Part shown: in pieces, positions 4,906 through 20,482 of the stretch | Layout of the letters: every line of letters starts with the position of its first letter | Position numbering within the stretch: position 1 is the stretch's first letter | Source: a virus | Strand: one strand, 5' to 3' | Length of the DNA stretch: 32,545 nt | Virus record (IMG/VR): IMGVR_UViG_3300045800_000016 | Span: 1 to 32,545 of that record | Translations under genes and position numbers: made by a program | The notes under the pieces: model-generated | The model's input: only the letters and a program-made list of their open reading frames with translations | Told to the model about the DNA's origin: nothing | Databases searched by the model: none

Positions 4906-5946
4906 CTATGTTTTTGGGTTGTTGGTGATATCTGAAAACATCGTAGGAGGCGATAGAAGATACTTTATCGCCTTTTCAATGTTTTGTTCTGAATGTTTTA
5001 GTAAACCAAGAGAAGAATTACAGTTGTGACACAAATAGTCCCTAATCATGCCCGTATCATGGCAGTGATCTAATACCATTGTTCTGGAGTCTGAAAAACA
5101 TATTTTACAACAGTTTCCTTGACATTGCAACAAATTTCTCTTTTTATTTTTTGACAATTTCAGAGAACCCACAAAGTGATTGCCTCCACAATTAACTCCA
5201 TCTAGCGGTATCCTTCCAAACGAGTCCGTCTTGGTCATTTTCCAACGACCTATGTATTGGGCCATCCCTTTTAACGTTTGCAAATTCTCTGACACCATAC
5301 CTATTCCAAGATTACACTCTATACAAAGTACGCCTCTTACAATACGAGTTACGTGATCGTGATCTGTTACAAAATCTCTCCTATTTTTACCATTAAAAGA
5401 ACGATTGCATATAGGACACCCTCCCTGATTGTTAAGGGCTGCGTCAAACATCTTCGATGACACTCCATATTTTTTAATAAGATTTTTGTTTCTTGAGCAT
5501 TCAGAACACAACCAATCGAGTCCATCTTTAGCTGTGATGTTTTTGTGAAAACCACTGGCGTCTTTGTAAGTGTTACATCGTGGACACGTCTTACCAATAG
5601 TTACAGGTAGATACTTTCTGTTTCTTCTGCTCTCCTTTAGCTTTATCTGTCTGTTCTTATCGCAGAGCTTACATAGACCACTGATTCCATCTTTGTTCCC
5701 TGTGTCTACATGGAACATCTGTCGATTTTTGACAGACCCGCATCCACGACACCTCTTTGTAGTAGGACAATCTGTATAATTGTTCTTCTTGTTTTTTGCT
5801 CTGTATTCTCTTAAGGAGATACGTTTGCAGTCTTTGCAATAAGAACATAAACCTCCCGCCTGATTTACCGAAACAGAAAAGGCAGACTTCGGTTTCTCCA
5901 GCTTACACTTTGGGCAAAATTTAAACAATCTTAGACCTACCGTCAA
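4906..5946 (-). CDS. Zinc-ribbon-repeat endonuclease VII-type protein with two nuclease domains (endonuclease 1)
   Basis: The protein has 346 residues. Three zinc-ribbon repeats have CxxC pairs starting at 11, 66 and 121, a 55-residue period, each followed by a second Cys pair. A full endonuclease VII-type His-Me core follows: CPIC at 177-180, DHDH at 195-198 and CIEC at 208-211. A second core follows at about 279-330, with CKIC, DHCHD at 293-297 and CHNC at 306-309. It is probably a free-standing homing endonuclease, with the ribbons binding DNA. The start is TTG, inside the last codons of the SbcC-like gene (26-base overlap). Lys9, two residues before the first zinc Cys, is read from the second base of that gene's TAA. 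No other protein in the window has two such cores. Confidence 0.85.
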   Translation of the reverse strand: MTVGLRLFKFCPKCKLEKPKSAFSVSVNQAGGLCSYCKDCKRISLREYRAKNKKNNYTDCPTTKRCRGCGSVKNRQMFHVDTGNKDGISGLCKLCDKNRQIKLKESRRNRKYLPVTIGKTCPRCNTYKDASGFHKNITAKDGLDWLCSECSRNKNLIKKYGVSSKMFDAALNNQGGCPICNRSFNGKNRRDFVTDHDHVTRIVRGVLCIECNLGIGMVSENLQTLKGMAQYIGRWKMTKTDSFGRIPLDGVNCGGNHFVGSLKLSKNKKRNLLQCQGNCCKICFSDSRTMVLDHCHDTGMIRDYLCHNCNSSLGLLKHSEQNIEKAIKYLLSPPTMFSDITNNPKT

Positions 5947-8008
5947 CCATAAGGACCTCTATTACCTCGTCGAATAGCCCTTGAAACTCCGAATTATGAT
6001 CAATTACAATAACCAGGCGATTTTGACATTGGGTTTTTAGCATTTCCAAGGCTGACTCCTTATCAGACGATCCTAACCCCTCCAGAGACTCGTCAAAGAC
6101 AATCCACCCAGGCCAACTACCTTTCCGTCTCCCCACCACATCACCTACAGCCAGGTCAACGGCCAGCTCGACCGCGATTTGCATGCCCCCAGAGATACCA
6201 GAGGCAAAAGACACCTTTCTTCCCCTAGAAAAGACACACAGAGTAATTCTTGCCTTAGCATTGCCGGTAGTCTCGGCCACCTTTTCAGTCTCAAAATCAA
6301 CGGAAAGATGCCTAACGTTAGCAACCTGTGACAAAATGTCGTTCGCTGCCGCCGCAATCTCAACCAAGACCTCCTCAACAATCGACCCTAGGAACCCCTG
6401 ACGCCCAACCAGAGCCACAACGTCCTTTTCTAGACTCAACGATTGCTTGGTTAGGTCCCGTTTTTCAACAGCCGCCTTGTAGGACCTCTCTAGAGATGCC
6501 GCCAAGAGCTTCCTCTCGTTCACCACGGCCTTTTTGACCTCTGCCTGGGACTTGAGGCTCACTAAGGTCTGCTCTTCGCTTAAATCGCTTTGTAGTGCGC
6601 CCTGGATAGCTGTTTCAAATTGGGTTACAGCCTGTAGGTCGCGCGCCAGGTCGGCAGCGAATTGTGCTTTGGTCTTTTTGTCTTCCTGCTCCAGGTCGGT
6701 GATTCTTTGACGCCTTGCAGATTCGAATGCTTCGGTCTTTTTCTTGAGGTTGTCTGTGATAGCTGCCAGGTTGCCTTGGAGTGCCGCAATGTTCGGGTCC
6801 GCTTCGTGGGGTTTGATCTCCTGAAGCTTCAAAACCTGCCCCGCCAGCTCCTCTTCCTTCACCTGAATATCTAACAAGGCGTCTTGAAGGTCGGACACGG
6901 TCTTCTTGACTGTGGTTAGAGTGGCCTCTGCCTCAACCCCCACCCATTCCCGCTTACATTCGGAACATTTTTGGCTAGCCAGTGTTTTTGCCCGAGTATG
7001 GGCCGCGTCCAGGTCCCTTTGGACTCTGATTCTGTGACCTACCGCTGATTTCAGGGAATTGATGGATACCGTTAGCTCGTTGCGTTGCTTGCTAGTTTGA
7101 AGGGCCTTTGCGGTGTCCTTCTCCTTGGTTTCTTCCAGAGACTTACGCACCCCCTCAACGGTCATCTTCAGGGCGGTTATCTCGATCGGCTCGTTGGCCT
7201 CGTAGGCCTTCTTTATTTTTGCGCGGTTGACCGATAGAACCGCCTCAAGCTCGTTTGATGCCTTGAACCTTATCGCTTCCCCTGCTCTTTGGTTGTTGGC
7301 TAACTCTTTCCTCTTTGTCTCGATTTGGGTTTTGAGTTCCTGTAACGCAGCTTGGTCAAATGGCTGGATGGCTCCAAGAGCCAGTTCTGCCATGTGTAGG
7401 GACTCTTTGCCGTTTGCTAGCGCAGTGAAGCAAAATTCGGCCTGGGAGGATTGGGTCATTAGCTCTGCGTCAAACTTCTTTGCTTTATCTTGTGCTGCGT
7501 TAGCTACCTTTTCGTAGGCCCCCAGCTCTAGGAGGTTCCACAGGAAGGTCTTCTTGTTCTCGTCGCTTAAGGACAAGAACAGCCCAGGCTTCCTTTGACC
7601 TCGGTAGGTGCAAATGGCTCGGGCTTCCTCGGTCATACCAAAAATATTGTCTAGCTCTGATTCCCCAGCCTTACCCTTGATGGGCTCTTTGTACGCACCA
7701 CCGGAAATGGACAACCCTTTTTGACGCTTAACGGTAATGTCACCTTTAGAGGTCTCTAGAATAGCAGTCGCCCCAGGTGCCTCTTCCGTGAACCAACTTT
7801 GCAGCTCTGTAGCCGGATCCTTACACCCACCAAAAATATAAGAAATTGCCTTTAGGAGGTAACTCTTGCCAGCTCCAGAACCAGCGCCAGTCTCAACAAC
7901 CTTACCCCTCACAAGGTAGAACCCGGCCTTAGGAAGAGTTACCGTGTGGGTACCTTCGAAAGGGCCGAAGTCCTTGAGCATCAATTGTTTTAGGTATAGC
8001 CAGTTCAC
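5921..8008 (-). CDS. SbcC/Rad50-like recombination ATPase (T4 gp46-type)
   Basis: The protein has 695 residues. Walker A is GAGSGAGKS (41-49), the zinc hook CSEC (348-351) sits in the middle of a long coiled-coil region (about 170-530), the ABC signature is SGISGGMQ (603-610), Walker B is WIVFDES (635-641) and the switch His is in VIDH (668-671). This is a complete Rad50/SbcC ATPase. It is expected to pair with the SbcD-like nuclease encoded at 18898-19905 to resect DNA ends for recombination-dependent replication. The start codon is GTG, 8 bases after the preceding stop, with only a weak ribosome site. Its 3' end carries the start of endonuclease 1. Unlike in many phages, the two subunit genes lie far apart and on opposite strands. 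Confidence 0.92.
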   Translation of the reverse strand: MNWLYLKQLMLKDFGPFEGTHTVTLPKAGFYLVRGKVVETGAGSGAGKSYLLKAISYIFGGCKDPATELQSWFTEEAPGATAILETSKGDITVKRQKGLSISGGAYKEPIKGKAGESELDNIFGMTEEARAICTYRGQRKPGLFLSLSDENKKTFLWNLLELGAYEKVANAAQDKAKKFDAELMTQSSQAEFCFTALANGKESLHMAELALGAIQPFDQAALQELKTQIETKRKELANNQRAGEAIRFKASNELEAVLSVNRAKIKKAYEANEPIEITALKMTVEGVRKSLEETKEKDTAKALQTSKQRNELTVSINSLKSAVGHRIRVQRDLDAAHTRAKTLASQKCSECKREWVGVEAEATLTTVKKTVSDLQDALLDIQVKEEELAGQVLKLQEIKPHEADPNIAALQGNLAAITDNLKKKTEAFESARRQRITDLEQEDKKTKAQFAADLARDLQAVTQFETAIQGALQSDLSEEQTLVSLKSQAEVKKAVVNERKLLAASLERSYKAAVEKRDLTKQSLSLEKDVVALVGRQGFLGSIVEEVLVEIAAAANDILSQVANVRHLSVDFETEKVAETTGNAKARITLCVFSRGRKVSFASGISGGMQIAVELAVDLAVGDVVGRRKGSWPGWIVFDESLEGLGSSDKESALEMLKTQCQNRLVIVIDHNSEFQGLFDEVIEVLMVDGRSKIV

Positions 8009-8016
8009 TTGTTACT

Positions 8017-8400
8017 TTAGTTAACAGATTTAACGTGTTTAGCAATCAAGGCCTTGATGCGAGCATTAAACCTCTCGTCATTGTAATGGAAGTTCCTCAT
8101 AGCCAAAGTCTTCCAGGTGGTTTCGGTAGGCTCCCACTGGCCCTCAAGACCATAGCACGAACAATGCCCGCCATCAACCTCAAAAAGCTTTCCGTCACGC
8201 TTAAACAGCACGCAGGCGCTTCCTGAATAATCCTCGTATTCGTACACGGCCACCAGGACCTCGGCGTCCGTAGCCATACCGTCAACTTGAACCTCAGAAT
8301 AGCATCTAGTGTCATAGTTATATCGATCTGTAGACCACTCGTTAGCCATATCCTTGTGGTCGGACCAATCTCCAAAATACTTTTGTGCTTTCTTTGACAT
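8017..8400 (-). CDS. Hypothetical protein, conserved-phage-protein type
   Basis: The 127-residue protein starts at MSKKAQKYFGDW. The start is fixed by AGGAGAC seven bases upstream. An in-frame extension to 8490 would run into the inverted repeat beside the tRNA genes and looks non-coding. The protein is rich in Asp, Tyr and Trp. The middle reads as an acidic strand-rich domain (ACVLFKRDGKLFEVDGGHCS), then LEGQWEPTETTW, and it ends in a basic helix. Small phage proteins with this GHCSCYGLEGQWEPT-like stretch are common, but no role is known to me. It is the first protein gene downstream of the tRNA array and may be reached by read-through from the array promoter. Confidence 0.78.
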   Translation of the reverse strand: MSKKAQKYFGDWSDHKDMANEWSTDRYNYDTRCYSEVQVDGMATDAEVLVAVYEYEDYSGSACVLFKRDGKLFEVDGGHCSCYGLEGQWEPTETTWKTLAMRNFHYNDERFNARIKALIAKHVKSVN

Positions 8401-8480
8401 GCTGTCTCCTAAGTTTGTTCGCCAGAGCTGAATCAGATTACGCCGTGTATGCGCAACTCCGTGCGCCATGTGTACTAGGA

Positions 8481-8549
8481 CCTGCCGCACCCACCTCCCC
8501 TTGGAGGCCGCGTTTAATTACGCTATCCAGCGAATGTGGGTGCGGCAGG
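8481..8549. repeat. 14-bp inverted copy of the tRNA-Lys 3' end
   Basis: CCTGCCGCACCCAC at 8481-8494 is the exact reverse complement of 8536-8549, which is the T-arm and acceptor end of tRNA-Lys plus one flanking base. A leftward transcript could pair the tRNA 3' end with this downstream copy, in competition with the cloverleaf. It has no U-tract, so it is not a standard terminator. It may be a folding or processing switch, or the scar of a tRNA duplication. Confidence 0.7.
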
Positions 8550-8611
8550 AGTCGAACCTGCGACCTTGGGCTTAAGAGGCCCCTGCTCTAGTCCAGCTGA
8601 GCTACGCACCC
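8537..8611 (-). tRNA. tRNA-Lys (CUU)
   Basis: A full cloverleaf of 75 bases: acceptor GGGTGCG/CGCACCC, D stem GCTC/GAGC, anticodon loop CTCTTAA (U33, anticodon CUU, A37), variable AGGTC, T arm GCAGG-TTCGACT-CCTGC and discriminator A. It resembles bacterial tRNA-Lys, including the GGTCGCAGGTTCGA stretch. The outer anticodon-stem pair is a G-A mismatch. CCA is not encoded. It reads AAG codons and is the last and only canonical member of a six-element array. Confidence 0.88.
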
Positions 8612-8617
8612 GGTTGA

Positions 8618-8701
8618 CAGTGAAATAGGGCTTGCACCTATACCTTCAGGTTTCGTTCCAGTCTTTGACTGGCCTTGACGCACTCCTTGTGCTATTCACC
8701 G
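8618..8701 (-). ncRNA. tRNA-like element (84 nt) with abnormal anticodon arm
   Basis: A fully paired 7-bp acceptor (CGGTGAA with TTCACTG, one G-T pair), TA at positions 8-9, D stem GCAC/GTGC with a 5-base loop, and T arm ATAGG-TGCAAGC-CCTAT. Between them lie a 5-bp stem CCAGT/ACTGG with a 5-base loop (CAAAG) and a small hairpin ACC-TGAA-GGT like a long variable arm. No normal 7-base anticodon loop with U33 can be drawn. It is clearly tRNA-derived in outline, but no amino acid can be assigned. Confidence 0.5.
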
Positions 8702-8707
8702 TTAATT

Positions 8708-8782
8708 TGTTCAGGAACGATAAGGACCACAAGCTCAGTTTTCTATATCAGTTTCACTTGTGAGCCCAACCGGCCCTGAACA
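8708..8782 (-). ncRNA. Structured RNA element closed by an 8-bp end stem
   Basis: The ends TGTTCAGG and CCTGAACA pair perfectly over 8 bp. The 7-bp core spans 73 bases, tRNA length. A GCC-GGTTG-GGC hairpin sits where a D arm would be, and CACAAG/CTTGTG close a long central arm. No T arm is evident. It sits in step with the neighbouring tRNA-like units, about 6 bases from each, so it is probably another processed element of the array. Confidence 0.4.
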
Positions 8783-8787
8783 TTTTG

Positions 8788-8863
8788 TCGGTCGGGTAGG
8801 ATTTGAACCTACATCATCTGCCCGTTCTACAGGCCATTCGCTCTACCATTAAGCTACCAACCG
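8788..8863 (-). tRNA. tRNA-like gene, anticodon unclear
   Basis: A 76-base element with acceptor CGGTTGG/CCGACCG, D arm GCTT-AATGGTA-GAGC, T arm GTAGG-TTCAAAT-CCTAC and discriminator A, all normal. The anticodon region is not: the best stem is GCCTG/CGGGC with a 5-base loop (TAGAA), or four pairs with loop GTAGAAC. It also has about four extra bases before and after the stem. Reading GTA (Tyr) needs a mispaired stem. It may be a degenerate tRNA, or a tRNA-like RNA that does not decode. Confidence 0.6.
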
Positions 8864-8868
8864 AGGAC

Positions 8869-8936: not shown

Positions 8937-8942
8937 GTAACG

Positions 8943-9013: not shown

Positions 9014-9018
9014 GAAAC

Positions 9019-9046: not shown

Positions 9047-9053
9047 CAAGTTT

Positions 9054-9326
9054 TTAACTTCGGTTCGCTTTTGTTCCCGCTAGGGGGTCTGCGTTGTCGT
9101 GGCGCTCCTTAAACAGACGCTCTGCATCAGAATAGCGCTCAACCGGCTTGACCATGATCCCGTTATCTAGGCGTTCCATAATGCTGGTAGAGGGGCCCTT
9201 GGTTAGCCTCTGGACTATATATCCGCATGGACACATTTTTTTCTCCAAGGGGATTGACTCGTAGCTGTCTCCAAAGACCCTACCTTGCTTATAGCATTTA
9301 GGACACTGTGTGTTAAACAGTGCCAT
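9054..9326 (-). CDS. Small zinc-ribbon protein
   Basis: The protein has 90 residues. The N-terminus is a short zinc ribbon: CPKC at 8-11 and CPC at 32-34. The layout is like small FmdB-type ribbons. The C-terminal half is charged and contains ERLDNGIMVKPVERYSDAE, probably a helix-turn that binds a partner. The role is unknown. It is the third gene of the chaperonin unit and its start overlaps the preceding gene by 14 bases. The tRNA-array promoter lies just past its stop, so protein and RNA genes are in separate but abutting units. Confidence 0.75.
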   Translation of the reverse strand: MALFNTQCPKCYKQGRVFGDSYESIPLEKKMCPCGYIVQRLTKGPSTSIMERLDNGIMVKPVERYSDAERLFKERHDNADPLAGTKANRS

Positions 9327-9600
9327 CGGGAGGTGCCTGGATAGAGCAATCTCGGCTGTCTTTGTTCGTTAGAGGACCTAACAATATCTTCAAAGGCCCA
9401 ACATGAAAGGTTTGTCCAAAAACGGCACGCTTACCTGGGATACACCCAAAGGACGTTTTGTCTACCGGTACGTCTTCACAAAAAACCTGCCACCCATGCC
9501 AGTTAAAGAACTTGGAGACAGGAATCTGGTTTCCCCACCTAAAGTTAATCGGCCACAGGCAATGACGACTCTTGTCTTTTTGAATACGTAAAGGTCGCAT
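9313..9600 (-). CDS. Hypothetical protein downstream of the chaperonin
   Basis: The 95-residue protein starts at MRPLRIQKDKSRH, one base after the chaperonin stop, with AAAGAG as ribosome site. A longer frame to 9627 would begin inside the chaperonin gene. It is rich in Trp, Phe and Cys (FFNWHGWQVFCEDV), predicted strand-rich and basic at the N-terminus. I do not recognise it. Its tight coupling to the chaperonin gene suggests equal expression, perhaps as a small partner or client, but no GroES motif is visible. Confidence 0.68.
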   Translation of the reverse strand: MRPLRIQKDKSRHCLWPINFRWGNQIPVSKFFNWHGWQVFCEDVPVDKTSFGCIPGKRAVFGQTFHVGPLKILLGPLTNKDSRDCSIQAPPDGTV

Positions 9601-9601
9601 G

Positions 9602-11443
9602 TTACACTCTTTCGTTTTCCATACCACTAGCTACTTGTCTCGCGAAATCGTTGGCATCCCTAGCCTCTGCCACATCTGCCATTTGGTCACGAGGAAACAC
9701 GATCACCCCACCTACGGTACCCAAAAGGGTCGCCCCGGCAATAGAATTCCTTAGGGCTTCCAGAAGGGCTGGTACAGAGTCGAGAATACCTTCCTCAAGA
9801 GCATTTACCGCCTGACCAGTAGCGATGTTGGTTACGATGGCTTTTTTTGGGTCGCCTTTGACGATTGACTTTCCAACTGCTGGATCTTGTTTCGAAGAAT
9901 CGAGTCCAGCGTTACTAAAAAGTACCCCGAGTGTATTAAGCAGGCTTGGATTAACAATTTCGTCCACAATTTTTTCAACCAGGGGGTCACTTTGTAATTC
10001 ACTTAGCTCCTTTGCAATTCGTACTAGGGTCCAACCACCACCAATCAATGCTCCATGCTTCAAAGCCCCTCTAATCGCGCACACCGAATCTTCAGCACGG
10101 TCACGACGTTCCTTTAGCTCTCCGTTCGAAGACCCGATTACCTTGAGCTTAGCAATGCCTCCAGAAAGCTTAGCTAGGCGTTCCTGGAAGTACCTGGTAT
10201 CGAGTTCCCCTTCGGTGTTAGGGATAGCCGCTTTAACTTTATCAATTTGCTCAAGGAGAATTTCTTCATCGCAATGGCCAATTACCGTACTGCGATAGCG
10301 ACCACACTCAAACGATTTGATTCCCATAGGAACGTAGACCTCAATCGGGGCCCCGTTAACGACCTGCTCTTCTTTTACCAAATTGCCCAGGTCTTCAAAC
10401 TCAGCCCCAGACAAAGGCTTAGTGACTGGATCAAAGATTACGCTACCTGTTATTGCGGCAATGTCTTCAAACAGGTGGCGTTCCGAATTCATGATAGGGC
10501 TATTTTTAGACACGACGACTGGCAGGACGTTGATGTTCGAAGGGGCAGTAAAAATCGAGGCCAGGTTGGCTAGAACGCCTTCGGAGAAGCCCGTGGCTAT
10601 AAAAACAACGTTGTGGCAGTCCATATACTTTCCAAGGAAGGCGTTCTGGATGCGGTCGATGATATCGAAACATGTTGCAAAGTCACTAACTCGACCGTAG
10701 TACAGCAGGAAAATTGGTTTTTCCATAATTACGCGCTGAGTAGCAGGGTCATTGATGAATGCGCTGTAAAACTTTCCAGCACTCTCTTCATATCCGCTAG
10801 TTAGCGGATACCCATCGACTTTTTCAACTTCGTAGGCGGTTTTACCTGTGGTTTCGACAATCGTCACATTGCCTTCGTCCCCGGTGATTTCAAAACACTT
10901 CATGACAGCATCGGCTAGTTCGGTATCGCCATTGCCGGAAATCTTCGCTACGCTCCAGAGGTTCTTTTTGCCCTTAGGGTCTTCAAAGTCGCATTTTACA
11001 GTCAGACGTTCGATAGCTGGGGACATGACGTCTCGGAACAAATTTTGGATGGTTTTGATTATGAAAATAGAAGGGACCGTAGGATTCTTCTTGCAAAAAT
11101 CTGTGGTGTACCTTACAAAGGCTTCACTCAAAATCGTAGCGGTTGTGGTACCGTCTCCGGCTTCTTGAGCAGTGCGAACCGAGACATCCCGGATAGATTC
11201 TAGGATGGAATGCTGGACGGCATCTTGAAAACCTAAAGAGCGAAAAACGGTAACTCCGTCTTTTGTGACTTGAGGCGGTAAGTTATATTCTTGCCGTTCA
11301 ATCAAGACAGGTCTACCTCCAGGGCCTAGGGTACCCCCTACGATTTGGGAAATAATTGCCATCGTGTCTAGGATTTTCTTTTCAAGGGCTGGAGATTTTG
11401 GTACAACTAATTTTGCGGCTGACTTTGTCTTCAGGGTTTCCAT
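9602..11443 (-). CDS. Phage GroEL-like chaperonin
   Basis: A 613-residue group I chaperonin that folds proteins by ATP-driven cycles. It has LGPGGRPV (39-46), TKDGVTV (60-66) and GDGTTTAT (96-103). The three aspartates GroEL needs for nucleotide binding and ATP hydrolysis (GroEL D52, D87, D398) correspond to D62, D97 and D452. The stretch AKLSGGIAKLKVIG and the HGALIGGG turn (463-470) mark the equatorial domain. It is about 65 residues longer than GroEL and lacks its Gly-Met tail. Phage chaperonins of this type are known in giant Pseudomonas and related phages and probably fold virion proteins. No certain GroES is present, but see the weak candidate at 18367-18753. It is led by its own promoter next to the control region. 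Confidence 0.93.
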   Translation of the reverse strand: METLKTKSAAKLVVPKSPALEKKILDTMAIISQIVGGTLGPGGRPVLIERQEYNLPPQVTKDGVTVFRSLGFQDAVQHSILESIRDVSVRTAQEAGDGTTTATILSEAFVRYTTDFCKKNPTVPSIFIIKTIQNLFRDVMSPAIERLTVKCDFEDPKGKKNLWSVAKISGNGDTELADAVMKCFEITGDEGNVTIVETTGKTAYEVEKVDGYPLTSGYEESAGKFYSAFINDPATQRVIMEKPIFLLYYGRVSDFATCFDIIDRIQNAFLGKYMDCHNVVFIATGFSEGVLANLASIFTAPSNINVLPVVVSKNSPIMNSERHLFEDIAAITGSVIFDPVTKPLSGAEFEDLGNLVKEEQVVNGAPIEVYVPMGIKSFECGRYRSTVIGHCDEEILLEQIDKVKAAIPNTEGELDTRYFQERLAKLSGGIAKLKVIGSSNGELKERRDRAEDSVCAIRGALKHGALIGGGWTLVRIAKELSELQSDPLVEKIVDEIVNPSLLNTLGVLFSNAGLDSSKQDPAVGKSIVKGDPKKAIVTNIATGQAVNALEEGILDSVPALLEALRNSIAGATLLGTVGGVIVFPRDQMADVAEARDANDFARQVASGMENERV

Positions 11444-11455
11444 GTGTGACTAACT

Positions 11456-12187: not shown

Positions 12188-13341
12188 TGTACGATACACT
12201 TCCTCTATACGAAGAAATAGACTCCCTTTGGCCTAACAAGAGGAGTCCCGCCCAAAAGGCGGAAGAAAAAGCTGCCTTGCAATCTTGCGTTGCTTCAGAT
12301 AGCGACGCACAATCCCTTAAGACCAAAATCGAAATCAAAATCGAAGACACAGATTCCAAGAAACTCCCCCCGCTAATCTCCTTGTTCGCTCTCCCCGCAC
12401 CCTGTAAGGCTCGCCCAGTTTATGCCGTTGTTGCCCCTGTAGAGCCCGAGGAAGAGCCCGTAGACGACGTGGTACAGGCCTTCGAAGAGATCTTAGCTGC
12501 CTGGCCAGAGAATGAAATTAAGCAAAACGAAAAATACGCTAGGATAGCCTTCGTTGCCTGCTGCCGGGTCAAGCCCTTTGAAGACGTCAAAAAGGCCTGC
12601 AAACGGTACATCGAAGAGATGAACAACCCCGTGAAGGCTTCGACCCACATGATGGGCATCAAAAAGTTCGTATCGGACGATGACATCTTGGACAATTGGC
12701 TGCAAAAGGCAAGCGTTGTTCCAAGCAATTATGACTCATCGTTCTTTGATGCAGCATACGAAATCTATCCGGAATTTGCAAACAAAAAAGACGAAAGGGC
12801 CAAGGAAGAGTCAAAATCTTTCTACAGGCGTTTCGTCAAGGAAGAAGAGGCTGTCGATTTTTATTGTGCCGTCCAGTCCTATTCCTCCAACCGCAAGGAC
12901 GACATCAAGACCTCTCAGCTCAGGGATGATTACGACGCCAGCAACGATAGTAAGTTCACCAAGAAATTCGTCACCTTCGTTCGCACCTGGAAGCAACAGC
13001 CTCGGGCCCAGGCTATGGTTACTTTGATTGAGCCGTTGTTAGGGAAGGCGTTTAAGGCAAAGGGGATTGACTACCAGTGCGTCTACCCCTTGGAAAACTT
13101 TGGGTCGGCTATTGGGTGGTATTGCCAGGTCGAGGGGGAAGACGGAGTTCCCAAGGGTATTGTGCATGCTGTCACTAAAATTGTGGAAGATGTGTGTTAT
13201 TGCTTGACTACGGGCAAGAACAATGATAATATAGTCAAAATCACAAATGTGGATTACAGCATTGTGTCAGAGGTTGTGTCGGCGTGTAAGTCACAAGCCA
13301 AAACCTTGCCTAAAACCTGGAAACGCATAGAGAATGAATAA
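12187..13341 (+). CDS. Putative replication-associated protein with a duplicated module
   Basis: The protein has 384 residues. After an acidic, low-complexity N-terminus come two copies of a module seen in many phage replication proteins, with an aromatic-Pro start, a helical middle and a final TW or NWL. Copy 1 is about 93-172 (from FEEILAAWPENEI to ILDNWL); copy 2 is about 182-272 (from FFDAAYEIYPEF to VTFVRTWK). The C-terminal 100 residues are a separate domain. The module is usual next to helicases or helicase loaders, and a helicase gene follows here with an 8-base overlap. The exact role (initiator, loader or adaptor) cannot be told. Confidence 0.65.
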   Translation: MYDTLPLYEEIDSLWPNKRSPAQKAEEKAALQSCVASDSDAQSLKTKIEIKIEDTDSKKLPPLISLFALPAPCKARPVYAVVAPVEPEEEPVDDVVQAFEEILAAWPENEIKQNEKYARIAFVACCRVKPFEDVKKACKRYIEEMNNPVKASTHMMGIKKFVSDDDILDNWLQKASVVPSNYDSSFFDAAYEIYPEFANKKDERAKEESKSFYRRFVKEEEAVDFYCAVQSYSSNRKDDIKTSQLRDDYDASNDSKFTKKFVTFVRTWKQQPRAQAMVTLIEPLLGKAFKAKGIDYQCVYPLENFGSAIGWYCQVEGEDGVPKGIVHAVTKIVEDVCYCLTTGKNNDNIVKITNVDYSIVSEVVSACKSQAKTLPKTWKRIENE

Positions 13342-14890
13342 TCTAGTCCTAGCCACGCCTACCAAGCTTCTTATGCCTATTGGCATTGAGAAGTCGCCTG
13401 CCTTTGAACAATTGCAGAAGGCGTTGGCTTATGAAGACAAACGGGTTACATACCAATACCTAACCTGGAAAAAGACTCAAAAGAACGATGACCGGTTCCT
13501 CCAGAGCGGAGGTAGGGGCTACAGGCATTGGTTTGTCCAGAAGCATGGTAGAGAGGCCCTGGACGACAAGGTAAAGCAACTGAATGCCGAAAGGTGGTGT
13601 AGCTGCCTACAGAAAGATGGAGACCGGTATTGGACTTACTCTGGCTTACAGAGATTAGTTGAACAGTCATTGGGCCTCAAGACTGAACCAAGACAATTCA
13701 TAACGCCCGAAGACTGGAAGCTAGTTCCTTGGGCAACTAAACCCCATGAACCCAGGTGGTACCAGTCCAAAGCAGTAGACCTATTATGTCCTCTAGATGG
13801 GTCTCGTACTCATGGAGCGACTGAAATCGGTACTGGGTTGGGCAAGACCCTTCTAATGGCCTTAATCGTCAAGCGGATAGGTCTACCAACGGTGATTTGC
13901 GTACCTACGCTCTCAATTGCTACCCAGGCCCTATTGGACTTTCAGAAGTGGTTTGGGGCAGGTAGGGTGGGGCAATTTTTCGACGGGAAGAAAAAGAGTG
14001 ACAAGTTCATCACGATTGCGGTATCCAAGTCGCTGTCGAATGTTGAGTTTGGCGACAAGCATTATGACAATTTGCGTAAGAAGAAGGTGTTGCTGGTCGA
14101 TGAAACCCACCTAGCGCCTCCAGAGTCTTTGTCAAGTGTCATGTTTGGTTTGTTGGCCGATGTTCCCTACAGGTATTTCTTGTCCGGTACCGTGCTCAGG
14201 AATGATGGCCTGGGGACATTATTAGATGCCATTACCGGTGAAATTGTCTTCAAGATGTCTGTAGAACAGGGAATTAAAGAAGGTTTCTTATCACCTCTGA
14301 AGTTCTTCCAGTACAACATCAAGTCAATGGATGGGTCGAAAATAGACGACCCATTGAAGTGCAATAAGTACCACCTACAGAACAACAAGAACGTCTACCG
14401 ACATGCAGCTGGGTTAATCAATCATGCGGTCAAGGAAAAGGGACGTAGGGTTTTAGTCCTAGTAGATACGGTCGATCAATTCAAGCGTTTGTTAGATGGG
14501 GGCCTTCGGGTAAGTTCAGCGTTTGCGCACGGGCCATTGGGGGAGAATAGGTCTACTGTTCCAGAAGATCAATGGAAGCTTCGTCCCATGGATTTAGTCA
14601 AGGGTTTTGATAACGGCGAATTTCCAGTGCTTGTCGCTACTAGTTGCGTTAGTATTGGGACGGATATCAAGTCTGCTGACCTGTTGGTAAATATTGTTGG
14701 ATTGACTAGTGAAATTGAGATCCGACAAGGCATCGGTCGAGGTACTCGCCTGTTTCCAGGTAAGACAGATACAGTGTACATCGACTACAACGTAATTGAT
14801 AATGAGACGATGGCTCGACATGCAGAAAAACGCCGAGCCATCTTCGATAGTGTCTATGGCAAATGCAAGGTGTTAAATGTTGCTGAGTAA
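13334..14890 (+). CDS. SF2 DNA helicase (UvsW-like)
   Basis: The 518-residue protein has superfamily 2 motifs in order: RWYQ (141-144), motif I GTGLGKT (166-172), Ia VCVPTLS-like (188-194), II VDETH (255-259), III SGT (284-286), V ATSCVSIGTDI (435-445) and VI QGIGRGTR (465-472). An N-terminal domain of about 135 residues precedes the core. This is the layout of phage UvsW and related branch-migration helicases, which unwind R-loops and stalled forks and drive the shift to recombination-dependent replication. It overlaps the preceding gene by 8 bases. Its last codons contain the ATG of endonuclease 2. Confidence 0.88.
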   Translation: MNNLVLATPTKLLMPIGIEKSPAFEQLQKALAYEDKRVTYQYLTWKKTQKNDDRFLQSGGRGYRHWFVQKHGREALDDKVKQLNAERWCSCLQKDGDRYWTYSGLQRLVEQSLGLKTEPRQFITPEDWKLVPWATKPHEPRWYQSKAVDLLCPLDGSRTHGATEIGTGLGKTLLMALIVKRIGLPTVICVPTLSIATQALLDFQKWFGAGRVGQFFDGKKKSDKFITIAVSKSLSNVEFGDKHYDNLRKKKVLLVDETHLAPPESLSSVMFGLLADVPYRYFLSGTVLRNDGLGTLLDAITGEIVFKMSVEQGIKEGFLSPLKFFQYNIKSMDGSKIDDPLKCNKYHLQNNKNVYRHAAGLINHAVKEKGRRVLVLVDTVDQFKRLLDGGLRVSSAFAHGPLGENRSTVPEDQWKLRPMDLVKGFDNGEFPVLVATSCVSIGTDIKSADLLVNIVGLTSEIEIRQGIGRGTRLFPGKTDTVYIDYNVIDNETMARHAEKRRAIFDSVYGKCKVLNVAE

Positions 14891-15584
14891 AAAGTGTTCA
14901 AGATGTAAGGTAGAGATGCCTATTTTGGAATTTTACAAGGATAGGAGCCAAAAAGATGGACGTACTCGTTCTTGTAAGTATTGTAACTTAAAGGTCACAA
15001 AGGTATCGAGAGACAAGAATAGCTCTAGGGAGTTTATTGTCATACCCGAGGTAAGGACCTGCCCCAGATGCAAAACGGAAAAACCTAGTTCGGAGTTTAG
15101 CAAGAACAAGACTAGATCAGATGGTCTGAATTCTTGCTGCAAGGTATGTGACGCTAAATCTAAGGCCTTATCTAGCGAGAAAAATAAAGCGAGGCAACAC
15201 GTCACAATTCCTGAGTTCAAGACCTGTCCAAAATGTGGGCTAGAAAAACCTAGCTTTGACTTTAGCTTTGCTAAAAGAGTGAAAGACGGGCTTAAGGGTA
15301 TTTGCAAAAAGTGTGATAGCGTTCGTCGAATGATGGCCGAATATGGCATCTCTAATGAGAGGTATAACGATTTACTTAATTCTCAAAATGGACAGTGTGC
15401 CATTTGTAAATGCACACCTGGAACTGACGAAAGACCTCTGTGTGTAGATCACAGCCACATAACCGGAGAGGTTCGTGGTCTTTTGTGTGTTGGTTGTAAT
15501 TTTTTGATAGGGCTAGCTAAAGATTCTATACATAATCTGTATAGTGCCATTGAGTACCTTAACAAGTATGAGAAATCAAAGTGA
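14877..15584 (+). CDS. Zinc-ribbon-repeat endonuclease VII-type protein (endonuclease 2)
   Basis: The protein has 235 residues. Three zinc-ribbon repeats have first Cys pairs at 7/10, 62/65 and 117/120 and second pairs at 33/36, 88/91 and 143/146, an exact 55-residue period. The nuclease core is CAIC (174-177), DHSH (191-194) and CVGC (204-207), followed by the usual GL-x-K-S helix. It is probably a free-standing homing endonuclease. The ATG lies in the helicase tail (14-base overlap, with AAGG upstream), and Lys5 starts at the second base of the helicase TAA. Its TGA overlaps the GTG of the next gene, so it sits seamlessly between two genes. Confidence 0.87.
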   Translation: MLLSKKCSRCKVEMPILEFYKDRSQKDGRTRSCKYCNLKVTKVSRDKNSSREFIVIPEVRTCPRCKTEKPSSEFSKNKTRSDGLNSCCKVCDAKSKALSSEKNKARQHVTIPEFKTCPKCGLEKPSFDFSFAKRVKDGLKGICKKCDSVRRMMAEYGISNERYNDLLNSQNGQCAICKCTPGTDERPLCVDHSHITGEVRGLLCVGCNFLIGLAKDSIHNLYSAIEYLNKYEKSK

Positions 15585-16249
15585 AAATATTCAATACGGA
15601 GGTTTTTGGATTCAGGGCAGCTCTCAGGGGATTGAGAAACCCCATGGACAGCTGGGAGAAGTCCGATACCGATTTTGAGTCTGTAGCGGGACTGTATGAT
15701 CCATTTAGTCATATTGACTGTACTGATGCCCCAGAAAAAATAGGGGACGGCGATTTGTGTCTTCTCAAGAACCTTACCAATGCGGGAACAGAACACCGGA
15801 AGGCCCTCAGGATGATTCAGATTTGGGCGACGTGGATATTGCCTAGATATGTTTGGACCGAGGCAGACACTTACAAGATTGGTATGACTAGGATGTCGTG
15901 TAGCACGATGCACAAGTTGGGGTGTAGGGACCTTACCGTAGATGATTTTCAGGATGGTGATGTTAGCCAAAATACCCTGGAAGAGTTAAATACCCTTGGG
16001 GAGGAGTATCGGGACTTGGTGGGTAACAAGAACCGAAAGAAGGTTCTTCGTGCAATGAAGAAAAAGCTCCCTGAGGGCTTTCTACAAAGGGCAGACGTTA
16101 ACTTCAATTATGAGACAGCTCTCAATATTTTTCGCCAGAGGAAGAACCATCAGCTACCAGAGTGGAGGTTTGGGGGCGAAGGACTTCCTGAGTCTATTTG
16201 TCACTGGTTGCATACCCTTCCACACCTAGATAAGTTGGTAGAAGTGTAA
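15581..16249 (+). CDS. Conserved phage protein resembling the ThyX-like family
   Basis: The 222-residue protein belongs to a family common in phages and prophages, recognised by FGFRAALRGLRNPMDSWEKS at the N-terminus, HRKALRMIQIW, DTYKIG-x5-SCSTMHKL and a final NYETALNIF-RQRKNHQLPEW. From memory, relatives are listed as hypothetical or as ThyX-like, and the pattern of a His/Arg-rich helix plus RKNHxLxEW recalls FAD-dependent thymidylate synthase. The canonical ThyX motif RHR-x7-S-x-R is absent, so enzyme activity is uncertain. A role in making thymine nucleotides would fit beside the reductase and deaminase. The start is GTG, overlapping the stop of endonuclease 2. Confidence 0.7.
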   Translation: MKIFNTEVFGFRAALRGLRNPMDSWEKSDTDFESVAGLYDPFSHIDCTDAPEKIGDGDLCLLKNLTNAGTEHRKALRMIQIWATWILPRYVWTEADTYKIGMTRMSCSTMHKLGCRDLTVDDFQDGDVSQNTLEELNTLGEEYRDLVGNKNRKKVLRAMKKKLPEGFLQRADVNFNYETALNIFRQRKNHQLPEWRFGGEGLPESICHWLHTLPHLDKLVEV

Positions 16250-16288
16250 TGGTAATGGTAATGGTAATGGTAATGGTAATGGTAATAG
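16247..16288 (+). repeat. TAATGG hexanucleotide repeat (six copies plus one variant)
   Basis: Six perfect TAATGG units run from 16247 to 16282, followed by TAATAG. The first unit is the stop codon of the ThyX-like gene overlapping an ATG. Each unit gives a further ATG in the same frame, so the downstream protein begins MVMVMV. Copy-number change would alter the number of start codons without shifting the frame. Confidence 0.95.
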
Positions 16289-16524
16289 ACTACCCTCTCT
16301 ACATTGAACCCAAAAAGCTGAAGGAGCTTGAAGAAGCCTTAGCTGAACAGGGCCGGATTCTGAAGAGTATTAAATGGTACGGTAAGAATAGGTTAACGGT
16401 AATGACGACTGTCGATCCTCTGGATTGGCGAGGGGAGGCAACAACACAAGCTTTTCTTTTGATGATATTTTGTATCGAATATATGCCGTTTTTGAGCAGG
16501 AGAGGGATTGGGAGGATGGACTGA
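16249..16524 (+). CDS. Small hypothetical protein, apparently frame-broken
   Basis: The frame opens at the first ATG of the TAATGG repeat and gives 91 residues, but any of six in-frame ATGs (16249-16279) could be the start. Up to about residue 60 the sequence looks like real protein (YIEPKKLKELEEALAEQGRI, then KWYGKNRLTV). After about 16430 the quality drops (AFLLMIFCIEYMPF), while the -1 frame becomes protein-like to a stop at 16580. Either the gene was shifted near the GGGG run at 16432-16435, or it is read with a frameshift, or the sequence has an error. Function unknown. Confidence 0.55.
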   Translation: MVMVMVMVMVMVIDYPLYIEPKKLKELEEALAEQGRILKSIKWYGKNRLTVMTTVDPLDWRGEATTQAFLLMIFCIEYMPFLSRRGIGRMD

Positions 16525-16580
16525 AGTATATGACCCATTACGAGAATATGAGATGGTGGGGATCAGCTGATTACAGATAA
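16392..16580 (+). other. Second-frame continuation of the frame-broken small gene
   Basis: In the frame -1 to the preceding entry the sequence is open from 16392 to TAA at 16578-16580. From about 16434 it reads GGNNTSFSFDDILYRIYAVF, then EQERDWEDGLKYMTHYENMR. This has normal amino-acid use, unlike the competing frame. No start codon with a ribosome site lies in this frame. Joined at about 16432 it would give a protein of about 109 residues ending 15 bases before the sigma factor gene, which matches the tight gene spacing here. Confidence 0.5.
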
Positions 16581-16595
16581 CCAACAGGGGAACAA

Positions 16596-17618
16596 ATGAT
16601 CGACGACTCAGGACATTTCCAAGGTTTTACAAAGGTGGTCGAAAGGGCTATTGCCAAGTATGGCCACCTGAAGACCGAAGATATGACTGCCCTCCAGTGT
16701 AAGCAGGTAGAACAGCTTGCTAGATTGGAGGTTGAGTTTAGGAAGGCCCTGATTAAGGACCCCAATGGGGAGGCTGCGTATTTAGCGTTCATTTCGTTTG
16801 TGTTGGATGACAAGAAAAATATTCTGTCCGCCAGGCCGTACTTTAGGTGTCGTAGGTCGTATTTTGCCAGTCATGTGTCCAAGGCTATCAGGAAGCGCAA
16901 TGTCCAGGTCCTCCAGCGGTATTGGGTGAATTATCACTTTATCAATTTTGTTACGAAGAAATTTCACTTTGGGGAAGACGTCCTTAGGACTGTCAGGAGG
17001 ATCAAGGAAGCCAGGCAGAAGCTGGTAATTATGAATATTCCTTTGGTCATTTCCAGGGCGAACATTTTTTGGTCTAGGACGCCCAAGTCGCATTTGAGTT
17101 TTATGGACATGGTTCAAGTCGGGGTAGAGGGCCTGATTGCGGCTATTGATAAGTACTGTGGGGAATACTCTAAGGTGTACCGAAGTGTAGTTATAGGTAG
17201 GTGTGTTGGAAATCTGATCGAGTCATATTCTAGCACTATGCTTCATTTCTACCCCGCCGACAAACGCAAGATCTACCGTGCCAATAAATTCAAATCACGA
17301 CACGTCCACGGTGATTACGATATAGACGATTTGGTCAACGAAGTTTCGAAGGCCGAAGGCAACGGTACCAACATAGAGGAAATCAGTAGCTTGATGGCAG
17401 CTGCCACAATGGTCAGTGCCGATTCGACTATTCAGAGTGACGCCGGGGAGTCTACGGTAACTGATTCAATTTCTAGGTATGCAGCTCCTGAGGAGAACAG
17501 GCCAGACCTACAGGTAGAAGCCAAAGAGACACATGATTTGATGCAAAGGGTTATAGAATCGTTGTCTTTGCTGGATAGGAAGCTTTTGAGGTTGAAGGGC
17601 CTTGACTTTGCGGTATAG
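16596..17618 (+). CDS. Sigma-70-like transcription factor lacking the region 4.2 helix-turn-helix
   Basis: The protein has 340 residues. Residues about 140-225 match sigma region 2: LVIMNIPLVISRANIFW (2.1), LSFMDMVQVGVEGLIAAIDK (2.2, the core-binding part) and SVVIGRCVGNLIES (2.3-2.4, DNA melting and -10 contact). Near the end, LDRKLLRLKGL is a region 4.1-like helix, and the protein stops there, without the helix-turn-helix that reads the -35 box. T4 gp55 is a known late sigma without region 4 that needs a coactivator, so this may direct late transcription. The N-terminal 130 residues are helical and basic. GGGGA lies just before the ATG. The last codons contain the -35 box of the next promoter. 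Confidence 0.78.
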   Translation: MIDDSGHFQGFTKVVERAIAKYGHLKTEDMTALQCKQVEQLARLEVEFRKALIKDPNGEAAYLAFISFVLDDKKNILSARPYFRCRRSYFASHVSKAIRKRNVQVLQRYWVNYHFINFVTKKFHFGEDVLRTVRRIKEARQKLVIMNIPLVISRANIFWSRTPKSHLSFMDMVQVGVEGLIAAIDKYCGEYSKVYRSVVIGRCVGNLIESYSSTMLHFYPADKRKIYRANKFKSRHVHGDYDIDDLVNEVSKAEGNGTNIEEISSLMAAATMVSADSTIQSDAGESTVTDSISRYAAPEENRPDLQVEAKETHDLMQRVIESLSLLDRKLLRLKGLDFAV

Positions 17619-17629
17619 TGGAGTATACT
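17602..17629 (+). promoter_or_regulatory. Sigma-70-type promoter inside the sigma gene tail, predicted leaderless
   Basis: TTGACT (17602-17607), a 16-base spacer and TATACT (17624-17629), then 6 bases to ATG 17636. The -35 box is built from the last codons of the sigma factor gene. The spacing predicts a transcript starting at the ATG. Confidence 0.65.
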
Positions 17630-17635
17630 TGTCGG

Positions 17636-17797
17636 ATGAGTCTAAATGAACTAATTAAGTTTTTGACAGAGATTAGTCAAACCCATCCAGGTAACGCGGA
17701 GGTCTATGTATCAACTGATGCTAGGTGTATCCGTTTGCGTCCTGAGGTTCAGTTTGGTGGCTTTGACATGGCCGTCATCCTACAGGGAGAAGACTAA
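17636..17797 (+). CDS. Small hypothetical protein (53 aa)
   Basis: A short gene reading MSLNELIKFLTEISQTHPGN, then a strand-rich acidic tail ending AVILQGED. It is supported by normal codon use, by a promoter ending 6 bases before the ATG and by the TAATG overlap with the next gene. It looks like a small alpha/beta protein of unknown role. It opens a run of small genes that ends with the SbcD-like nuclease. Confidence 0.72.
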   Translation: MSLNELIKFLTEISQTHPGNAEVYVSTDARCIRLRPEVQFGGFDMAVILQGED

Positions 17798-18024
17798 TGC
17801 TTGTAAGTAGCCACACTATTTCAATCTGGCATCAATGGAATTTTGCGTCAAAGGAAATCCAGGACGCCTTCCTTGTCCACGCAGAAGACGACCTTATTGT
17901 ATTTGTGCCGAAGGTTGTAGAGAACGGGGTACACATTCCGGAATTTTTAACTCTTTTACATGTAGGAGACGGTGTAAAATTGTCGCACGGCACCGCATAT
18001 GTAGGGAAGGGTAAGATTGTATGA
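17797..18024 (+). CDS. Hypothetical protein (75 aa)
   Basis: A 75-residue, strand-rich protein without membrane segment or Cys. The sequence LHVGDGVKLSHGTAYVGKGK looks like a small beta-barrel or SH3-like fold with a VGD turn. I do not recognise it. It starts on the stop of the 53-residue gene (TAATG) and its stop overlaps the next ATG (ATGA), so all three are coupled in translation. Confidence 0.72.
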   Translation: MLVSSHTISIWHQWNFASKEIQDAFLVHAEDDLIVFVPKVVENGVHIPEFLTLLHVGDGVKLSHGTAYVGKGKIV

Positions 18025-18389
18025 AGGTTACGGCCCAGCTTCTAATTTCTGGCACTGGTAGCATCAAGGAAATCCGCGCCACCCCAGGAAACGATAAAGA
18101 CCTGTTTATCGTCCTTGACACCTACAATAATGCCGCAGCTATTGACGCTGTAGTCGCGTATTTAGGCCTTGAGGCTTTAGCTAATACGCGCAACATTGGG
18201 TTTCAAGAGTATTTGATCGGGCTAGAGGGGATGGCGAAAGATATGCTTGGCCACCCATTGGAAGCTAAGAACGAACCACCAGCCCAACCCGTTGCACCTG
18301 TAACAGCCGACACCCAACATTACACAGAACAACTCCCCCTCTTCCCAGACAAGAAAGAAGACTCCAATGTCCCTAGTATTTCAAAATAA
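18021..18389 (+). CDS. Hypothetical protein (122 aa)
   Basis: The first 80 residues look like a compact alpha/beta domain (VTAQLLISGTG, LFIVLDTYNN, AAIDAVVAYLGLEALA). A Pro/Ala-rich tail follows (NEPPAQPVAPVTADT) and ends in EQLPLFPDKK. Short QLPLF-like tails resemble the clamp-binding peptides (QxxLF) used to dock on sliding clamps, so an interaction with a replication clamp is possible but speculative. The start overlaps the previous stop by 4 bases and the end overlaps the next gene by 23. Confidence 0.7.
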   Translation: MKVTAQLLISGTGSIKEIRATPGNDKDLFIVLDTYNNAAAIDAVVAYLGLEALANTRNIGFQEYLIGLEGMAKDMLGHPLEAKNEPPAQPVAPVTADTQHYTEQLPLFPDKKEDSNVPSISK

Positions 18390-18753
18390 TGTAGTTGCTT
18401 GTTTGCCGTTTACGGAAGAGCAACTGAACCCAAAGAAGACCAGCAGCCTTGCTACACTTGGCGGGGGGAAGGGGATCTCTCTGGAGCCCCTGTTGGTTTG
18501 GAAAGGTACTGAGGCTGGGGGCAAGACTATAATCGGTGATGATGACTTGGTCTTTGTGAAGTCGACAAGTATCACGACTCCTTGGGCAAAGGAAAGGGTT
18601 ACGATTGCTGGGTGCGTGTGGGAGGATGTGATTGATGAAAAGACGGGCAAGAACAAGCTCATTGAATTCATCCTTGTTCCAGTATCGGAAATTATAGCTA
18701 TTGACCGCGACTTTCAAGTAAACGAAGATAAGGAAGTATTGAAGGTGAACTAA
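18367..18753 (+). CDS. Hypothetical beta-rich protein, weak GroES-like candidate
   Basis: The protein has 128 residues and is strand-rich, with a flexible Gly-rich stretch near residue 35. The second half has the order seen in co-chaperonins: IGDDDLVFVKST (cf. the GD-x-V-x-F strand), ERVTIAG, then FILVPVSEIIAI (cf. the GroES ending LIM-x-E-x-DILAI). A GroEL-like gene lies in the same window, so a partner would make sense. The similarity is short and the N-terminal DRVLVK-type signature is missing, so I call this only a possibility. The overlap with the previous gene is 23 bases; the stop overlaps the next ATG (TAATG). Confidence 0.62.
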   Translation: MSLVFQNNVVACLPFTEEQLNPKKTSSLATLGGGKGISLEPLLVWKGTEAGGKTIIGDDDLVFVKSTSITTPWAKERVTIAGCVWEDVIDEKTGKNKLIEFILVPVSEIIAIDRDFQVNEDKEVLKVN

Positions 18754-18905
18754 TGAGTAAATGTACTTTGATGAAAATTGTGTCGGCTCCTATAGCCGGT
18801 CTTTTGTTCGTCATGTTTTTGCCGTTTGTCGGTTTCATCATCGCTGGGCAGTACCTGTGTTTGAAAGCTTGGTACATGCTAGGGTTTGGTAAGCGACGTG
18901 TCTAA
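18753..18905 (+). CDS. Small membrane protein (50 aa)
   Basis: The gene reads MSKCTLMKIVSAPIAGLLFV, continues with a hydrophobic stretch to about residue 33 and ends in GFGKRRV. One transmembrane helix, perhaps two short ones, with a basic C-terminus. It is supported by TAATG coupling to the preceding gene and by an 8-base overlap with the start of the SbcD-like gene. Possible roles include a holin-like or superinfection protein, but the sequence shows only membrane insertion. Confidence 0.68.
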   Translation: MSKCTLMKIVSAPIAGLLFVMFLPFVGFIIAGQYLCLKAWYMLGFGKRRV

Positions 18906-19905
18906 GATTCTGATTATAGGAGACGTTCATGCTGTTCCACAGGAGCTTGCTGATTGCGAGGCTCTGTGGCGGCTTGTCGTGGAGACTGTTGAGACTCACA
19001 AGGTAGAAACGGTCCTCTTACTGGGGGACCAGTTCAATACTCACGACATTGTTAACACTCGGGTAATCGACTTTTGGATGAATTCCTTCAAGCGATTGGT
19101 GGGTTCTCCAGAGACGATGGGGCTTGATGGGCCGGTTGTGGTTTGTTTGGTTGGAAATCACGACCAGCTGACCCCGACGATCAGACATCCTCATGCTATG
19201 GTGCCTTACCAGGATATTTGCAACGTGGTAGATAACCCTACTAGAATTGGCTCATCGTGTTATATGCCATACTACGCTAATCCGGTAGAGTTTATCGAGG
19301 ATGCGGTAAGGATGAAGAACAAATGCCCAGATGTTGACACGTTGTTCTGTCACCAAACGTTCTGCGGTGCTGATCAGGCCCTAGGCTTCTATTCTAAGGA
19401 CGCAGTCGAACCTAGTGCCGTACCCTTCAAGCGCATCCTTTCGGGTCACATTCACAAGCCTATGCGTTTTGGAAAGGTCTGGTATGTAGGGGCTCCAAGG
19501 TGGCGGACGCTGACTGATGCCGAGGTTGAGACCAGGAATATTTACATCCTGGAGACTGGCAAGCCACCGGTTGCAATCCCTACTAATACGCACTGTGCCA
19601 GAATCTATAAATTTGAGGATTCTGAAGCTGCACCGGTCCAGATTAACTTGACGCAGGACGAACTGACCAGAGCTGACCTAAGGATAACAGTCGCTGGCGA
19701 CCTTCCTTATATTACTAAGCGTATGTCGGAATTGAAAGGGAAATATAACGCAAAGTGTAGAGGAGTACCAACCAGGAGCAAACTGGCTAAGGCCTCCGAA
19801 AGTGAAGGAATAGACAAAGCGTTTAGTCGTTTCGCTCAAGACTTCAATCCGCCGAACGGAACCAACCCCAATCTCTTAATGAAGGAAGTTTGTGCAAGAT
19901 TTTAA
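18898..19905 (+). CDS. SbcD/Mre11-like nuclease (T4 gp47-type)
   Basis: A calcineurin-like phosphoesterase of 335 residues with all the usual motifs: GDVH (residues 8-11), GDQF (43-46), GNHD (86-89), then a CHQT His and GHIHKP. These residues bind two metal ions. It should form a complex with the SbcC-like ATPase (5921-8008) that trims DNA ends for recombination. I chose the GTG at 18898, in GTGTCTAAG, over a TTG at 18886 because motif I then lies at the usual distance from the N-terminus. The C-terminal 100 residues are a capping/partner region. Its last codons contain the ribosome site and GTG start of endonuclease 3. Confidence 0.9.
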   Translation: MSKILIIGDVHAVPQELADCEALWRLVVETVETHKVETVLLLGDQFNTHDIVNTRVIDFWMNSFKRLVGSPETMGLDGPVVVCLVGNHDQLTPTIRHPHAMVPYQDICNVVDNPTRIGSSCYMPYYANPVEFIEDAVRMKNKCPDVDTLFCHQTFCGADQALGFYSKDAVEPSAVPFKRILSGHIHKPMRFGKVWYVGAPRWRTLTDAEVETRNIYILETGKPPVAIPTNTHCARIYKFEDSEAAPVQINLTQDELTRADLRITVAGDLPYITKRMSELKGKYNAKCRGVPTRSKLAKASESEGIDKAFSRFAQDFNPPNGTNPNLLMKEVCARF

Positions 19906-20482
19906 GACATGTTCTAAATGTCACATGACAAAAAAGCTTGCGGAGTTTGGCAAGGACAAGAATCGCAAGGATGGGTTTAACTGTCATTGCAAGGAGTGTT
20001 GTAAAACGGCCAGGCTATTATATCTTGGGAAGAATAAAGCTAGGGTAACAGTTGCATATCCACTTTCTAAGGTCTGTTTTGCTTGCCAAGTAGAGAAACC
20101 TACAGAGAGGTTCGGCAAGAACAAAACGAACAAGGACGGCCTTCAAAGGTGCTGCAAGGATTGTTCTTATGTGATCTACAGAAGATCTCTGTACGGGGTT
20201 ACAAAAGAGTGGTACCAAGCGACTTTAAAATCTCAAGAACACGCTTGTGCTGTTTGTAAGACCGATACCCCTGGCGGGCGTGGAGAGTGGCACATAGACC
20301 ACGAGCACGTTAAGGGGTGGAAGGAAATGCAGCCAGCGGAACGTATGTTGTATGTTCGCGGGCTGTTGTGTTACAGTTGTAACCACGCCTTGGGGTTATT
20401 TAAAGAATCTGTAAAAAGCTTGGAGTCGGCGGTTGTTTATCTCAACAAACACAGTTTAAGAAAATTTGAGAAGGTGGAGTAA
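19892..20482 (+). CDS. Zinc-ribbon-repeat endonuclease VII-type protein (endonuclease 3)
   Basis: The protein has 196 residues and two zinc-ribbon repeats (Cys pairs at 7/10 and 33/36, then 62/65 and 88/91), one repeat fewer than the other two but with the same 55-residue period. The nuclease core has CAVC (119-122), DHEH (136-139) and CYSC (160-163), with a 12-residue insert between DHEH and the last pair. The start is GTG with a strong AAGGAAG site, 14 bases before the SbcD-like stop; Lys5 starts at the second base of that TAA. The stop overlaps the next ATG (TAATG). It is probably a free-standing homing endonuclease. Confidence 0.87.
   Translation: MQDFKTCSKCHMTKKLAEFGKDKNRKDGFNCHCKECCKTARLLYLGKNKARVTVAYPLSKVCFACQVEKPTERFGKNKTNKDGLQRCCKDCSYVIYRRSLYGVTKEWYQATLKSQEHACAVCKTDTPGGRGEWHIDHEHVKGWKEMQPAERMLYVRGLLCYSCNHALGLFKESVKSLESAVVYLNKHSLRKFEKVE

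Follow-up and report, generated by a model that had tools for sequence, protein, structure and literature searches.

Putative homing genes of the EndoVII type at stop/start junctions in a relative of Myxococcus phage Mx1, with probable capture of existing start codons

The virus record IMGVR_UViG_3300045800_000016, a stretch of 32,545 bases referred to below as the window, carries three endonuclease genes whose first codons lie inside the 3' ends of recombination genes. The locus raises the question of how these genes came to occupy such positions and, in particular, whether they land at stop codons in a fixed register, as a preliminary description of the same DNA had proposed. The features concerned are the following, with coordinates in the window and strand.

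4541..4897, minus strand: orf118, on the 3' side of the SbcC junction; conserved, with 54% identity in L044/L048
4906..5946, minus strand: endonuclease 1; three N-terminal zinc ribbons and two EndoVII HNH cores (PF02945 E=3.9e-28 in two stretches; two DHxH..CN cores)
5921..8008, minus strand: SbcC-like host gene, ending SKIV*; phrog_77
13334..14890, plus strand: UvsW-like helicase host gene, ending KVLNVAE*; PF04851 ResIII, phrog_16
14877..15584, plus strand: endonuclease 2; three zinc ribbons and one EndoVII HNH core (PF02945 E=3.2e-22)
15581..16249, plus strand: orf222 (phrog_6721), 3' of endonuclease 2, its start lying across the stop of that gene (4 nt shared)
18886..19905, plus strand: SbcD-like host gene; PF00149, phrog_100
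19882..19894, plus strand: 3' end of SbcD containing the AAGGA ribosome site and the GTG start; the AAGGA is kept in empty-site relatives
19892..20482, plus strand: endonuclease 3; two zinc ribbons and one EndoVII HNH core (PF02945 E=1.1e-18)
20482..20763, plus strand: orf93, 3' of endonuclease 3, its start lying across the stop of that gene (1 nt shared)

The endonuclease genes overlap their host genes by 26 nt (endonuclease 1 and SbcC), 14 nt (endonuclease 2 and the helicase) and 14 nt (endonuclease 3 and SbcD), and at all three junctions the second base of the host TAA is the first base of the Lys codon in the motif K-x-C-x-x-C. At SbcC, on the minus strand, the stop TAA lies at 5923-5921 and the Lys codon at 5922-5920; at the helicase the TAA is at 14888-14890, the Lys codon at 14889-14891 and the first Cys at 14895; and at SbcD the corresponding positions are 19903-19905, 19904-19906 and 19910. 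This arrangement is given below as offset -7, the distance in nt from the first zinc Cys codon back to the T of the host stop TAA. The start codons, all within the host genes, are TTG, ATG and GTG for endonucleases 1, 2 and 3, respectively, and endonuclease 1 has a second, equally plausible start, the TTG at 5928, which would give an 8-nt overlap with SbcC. Candidate ribosome sites (AAGGA, AAGGTG and GAGGT) lie 5' of the three starts. The coordinates, frames, start codons and TAA/Lys register reported in the preliminary description were confirmed from the sequence at every junction, as were the overlaps of endonucleases 2 and 3 with the next start, which consist of GTGA at 15581-15584 and TAATG at 20482. 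With an overlapped stop and a ribosome site inside the upstream gene, all three appear to have the geometry of translationally coupled genes. A further stop/start overlap, between orf222 and the next ORF, carries a perfect tandem repeat of GTAATG (6.8 copies, window 16246-16286; the ORF begins MVMVMV...), and since the repeat sits exactly on the TAATG overlap, the coupling signal itself appears to be repeated.

The best sequence family for all three proteins is PF02945 Endonuclease_7 / phrog_2633, and their PF02945 scores of 97.6, 78.7 and 67.4 bits all pass the cut-off of 23.6. In the alignment the zinc Cys pairs and active-site residues are intact, with C174/C177, D191 H192 H194 and C207 N208 invariant. 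The structure predicted for endonuclease 2 (mean pLDDT 86.6, pTM 0.54) consists of three similar N-terminal units and an HNH domain, and a fold search with it gave Hpy99I and T4 EndoVII as the best matches, in agreement with the sequence search. A recent duplication of the three genes within the window genome was considered and is not supported, as their mutual identities are 29-40% and they form no exclusive grouping.

A megablast search of the window against phage genomes gave no match, and a single-sequence search with SbcC found no relatives; relatives were retrieved through the helicase, SbcD, TerL and SbcC, with TerL and SbcC used as alignments. The closest is contig IMGVR_UViG_3300050025_000333 (record G001, with loci L043, L047 and L089), which shares 87% identity in TerL, 75% in the helicase, 69% in SbcC and 58% in SbcD, and the nearest named phage is Myxococcus phage Mx1, with the same gene order and without EndoVII. 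The SbcC site is empty in L089, Mx1 and L050, and the protein that ends SKIV* in the window ends SKIVV* or SNIVV* in the two nearest relatives (L089 and L090 end IVV*), the window form being one residue shorter. The helicase site is empty in Mx1, L050 and others, the L050 protein ending KVMEAK*, while in L047 the helicase ends RVMEASSWMT* and the site holds another EndoVII gene, in a different register and with its own GGAGG-ATG. SbcD ends at the same residue in L047 and L044, where it has no nuclease behind it, and no EndoVII gene was found after SbcD in any other relative examined; its stop is TAA in the window as against TGA or TAG in the relatives. Occupied and empty alleles between two conserved genes were thus found for the window nucleases and, as the host genes of relatives end at or near the same place without a nuclease, the nucleases are optional genes inserted at junctions, with the host protein left essentially whole. 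This bears out the earlier proposal of insertion at gene ends with the host protein kept: there are empty sites for all three genes, and the ends are the same or within a few residues. The loss of one codon from SbcC and the changed stop type of SbcD mean that the host end is not strictly untouched and, with relatives 58-75% identical in the host genes, the empty sites are not nucleotide-exact. Another feature of the comparison is window 13108-13819, where DNA identity to the sister contig (L043/L047) is 93%, most other aligned stretches showing about 72-79%; here the helicase is identical over its first ~160 residues, after which identity falls sharply, and what appears to be a recent recombination tract ends about 1 kb from endonuclease 2.

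The origin of the start codons can be judged where a relative with an empty site starts a different gene at the same position, a situation found at the SbcD and GroEL sites. In L047, the ATG of the native gene that follows SbcD overlaps the SbcD stop by 14 nt and has AAGGA before it; when aligned, the GTG of endonuclease 3 occupies the position of this ATG, behind the same AAGGA. The small gene native to the SbcD 3' side in L047 and L044 is absent from the window, and a search for its remnants 3' of endonuclease 3 found none. At GroEL, the ATG of a TAATG stop/start in Mx1, L062 and L057 begins a native small zinc-ribbon gene; in G001 (L084) the same TAATG begins an EndoVII gene, with the zinc-ribbon gene next in line and starting at an ATG of its own within the 3' end of the nuclease gene. 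Since native and nuclease genes use the same start at both sites, the overlap register apparently comes with the junction and is not dictated by the nuclease. The comparison favours start capture, which among the three window sites is seen at SbcD only. The suggestion that the start and ribosome site were borrowed can accordingly be retained for SbcD, where they are clearly pre-existing host DNA. Between GroEL and the small zinc-ribbon gene, the window has an uncharacterised ORF (9313-9627), at the place where G001 has its EndoVII gene. In a different phage (L131, 5816-8147) a same-clade EndoVII gene also lies directly 3' of GroEL, as in G001; GroEL as a common homing target of the two is unproven, the nucleases being only 38.5% identical.

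Most ORFs of the wider nuclease family were gathered by a zinc-ribbon DNA pattern that left out the Lys at -2, and this Lys stands two residues before the first Cys in 126 of the 134 family ORFs. Absent from the scan pattern yet near-invariant, the residue is to be ascribed to the zinc ribbon, not to the junction, and because it is family-wide the K-x-C motif is uninformative about junctions. A T precedes the Lys codon, giving TAA, in 20-22% of members, and the host stops of other members are found at -8 (ATGA or GTGA), -11, -14, -15 and many larger offsets. Offset -7 occurs in five of 17 near junctions, the window's three included; outside the window it is seen, in unrelated viruses, in L114 with a lambda-family portal gene as host and in L174 with an AAA-ATPase-like gene (called from a Walker A motif read by eye), L297 being a weaker case. 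Where TAA occurs at the first Lys, it closes an ORF of at least 80 codons in 6 of 18 cases, compared with none of 11 at the Lys of internal repeats (Fisher p 0.06, or 0.24 without the window). Against 14 outside junctions, a small sample, three of three at -7 has a p of about 0.003, and three-way agreement on any register one of about 0.02. The coincidence of all three host stops with the Lys codon is mildly non-random, not overwhelming, and is partly explained by the conservation of the Lys. Agreement in frame was rejected as evidence for a special register, because the other overlaps counted in the window (1, 4, 8, 8 and 23 nt) show the same frame wherever they exceed 4 nt (8, 23 and 8 nt, all 2 mod 3). 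Nucleases of the same clade in sister phages lie at offsets of -14, -11, -45 and -59, with none of the four at -7, and, given the many offsets in the wider family, a fixed stop-codon register does not hold as a rule. Members whose starts ignore the register, which the preliminary description had named as the observation that would tell against it, do exist, and they tell against a strict register only. We take the strict register for one of the common outcomes of insertion and not for a rule of targeting, and start capture alone does not account for the excess of -7, with three of three in the window genome against none of four in the sisters.

A tree of HNH cores, built from few columns and modestly supported, places the window nucleases together with those of G001 and G002 in a single group of eight, and same-group pairs lie at different sites: G001 orf261 with the G002 gene at TerL (97% support), and endonuclease 1 with the helicase-site gene of G001 (support 87). 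Elsewhere the host genes are GroEL, TerL and a head-region gene in sister phages and a portal gene in another phage, so recombination genes are no special target, and the idea that the insertion sites are recombination-specific has to be abandoned. Junctions are also used again by unrelated nucleases. The occupants of the SbcC 3' junction are EndoVII in the window, a TnpB-like gene in L044 (1724-3043) and a zinc-ribbon HNH gene of another type, with an ATGA overlap, in L091 (6142-6987); across L044, L090 and L091, the SbcC/orf118 junction looks to be an insertion hot spot. Two other loci show different states of such genes. In L048 (9796-10010), a 71-codon open frame between orf236 and TerL has the EndoVII core alone and is probably a decayed nuclease. 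In L114 (4376-5159), where an EndoVII gene stands after the lambda-type portal gene, the portal C-terminus occurs again beyond the nuclease as a 51%-identical copy, suggesting entry inside the portal gene with a replacement 3' end.

We consider it probable that the window carries three free-standing EndoVII-type genes (HNH, beta-beta-alpha-Me), most likely homing genes, that settle in stop/start junctions and capture existing starts. Their sites are the junctions of adjacent co-directional genes in phages related to Mx1, presumably reached by homing through double-strand break repair, and the mobile unit would effectively start at the first zinc ribbon (K-x-C-x-x-C). A copy would persist if the join keeps the stop of the upstream gene in, or close to, its former place, and if the junction already offers a start codon and ribosome site from which the nuclease is read in frame. 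The captured start would often be the translational-coupling start of the native next gene, so that the nuclease would itself be expressed by translational coupling. Offset -7 would arise when the host frame meets T/AAR at the conserved Lys codon, spelling TAA, the host stop then being completed by that codon.

A stricter account would give the mobile gene a defined 5' end at T/AAR and have it insert specifically at stops, perhaps with microhomology between donor and recipient TAA copying the register. It draws on the uniformity of the window junctions, on the recurrence of the register at the portal and AAA-ATPase-like genes of unrelated viruses, and on the two changes relative to empty relatives, the SbcD stop becoming TAA and SbcC losing a codon. 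Yet the same clade sits at four other offsets in the sisters and the wider family mostly at others again, and L174 appears to have a different HNH core, which leaves only the zinc ribbon in common; we regard this account as unlikely. Equally doubtful is the related notion that the K-x-C zinc-ribbon module is an insertion-ready 5' end, in which one join would end the host gene (T plus the Lys codon giving TAA) and start the parasite from a captured start in another frame, TAA microhomology copying the register from site to site. If instead the nucleases were long resident and their starts had crept into the upstream genes, neither recent insertion nor a special register would be needed, and the tightly packed window genome, with its other overlaps in the same frame, would be in keeping with this. 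Such drift is already disfavoured by the occupied/empty pattern: every site shows presence and absence among relatives, the same clade is at different sites, and the same junctions hold a remnant and alternative nucleases or TnpB. We give it a slim chance. That the proteins are recruited EndoVII-like resolvases, working with SbcCD and UvsW and kept in these operons for their function and not as selfish elements, would suit their intact active residues, the established role of T4 EndoVII as a resolvase, and the fact that two of the three host genes form a recombination nuclease. However, most relatives have no copy at these sites, and other copies sit beside GroEL, TerL, the head-region gene and the portal gene; we consider this reading very improbable.

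Free-standing homing genes need to be expressed without harm to their neighbours, and this locus and its relatives point to a simple way of doing so, by entering a stop/start junction and taking the coupled start that exists there. A phage group with occupied, empty, decayed and differently occupied versions of its junctions also offers a natural series well suited to studying the way in which such genes settle. The window genes appear to fit a known kind, the free-standing homing genes typified by those of T4, the T4 Seg and Mob families themselves not being of the EndoVII zinc-ribbon type. The family phrog_2633 / PF02945 is defined by sequence, and junction geometry is outside its definition. 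By both sequence and fold, the closest solved structures to the HNH domain are T4 endonuclease VII, a resolvase, and Hpy99I, a restriction enzyme, which are without the long zinc-ribbon array of the window proteins. No published description of the Lys-codon stop register came up in searches of an open-access library, and there may be one elsewhere. A homing endonuclease with the EndoVII motif has already been published, F-CphI of cyanophage S-PM2 (PMC6083498); like the window genes it is a free-standing phage gene with an EndoVII catalytic motif that adjoins a conserved gene, in its case the one that it targets, but it works with an intron in psbA, whereas the window genes have several zinc ribbons and different host genes. 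The free-standing homing genes of T4 are inserted between conserved genes, five of them overlapping the ORF before them, and UAAUGA is common to mobE and nrdA, an arrangement that has been read as translational coupling (PMC2988022). The window genes resemble these promoterless or coupled seg and mob genes, mobE especially, and differ in their overlaps of 14-26 nt and in a host stop placed at the zinc-ribbon Lys.
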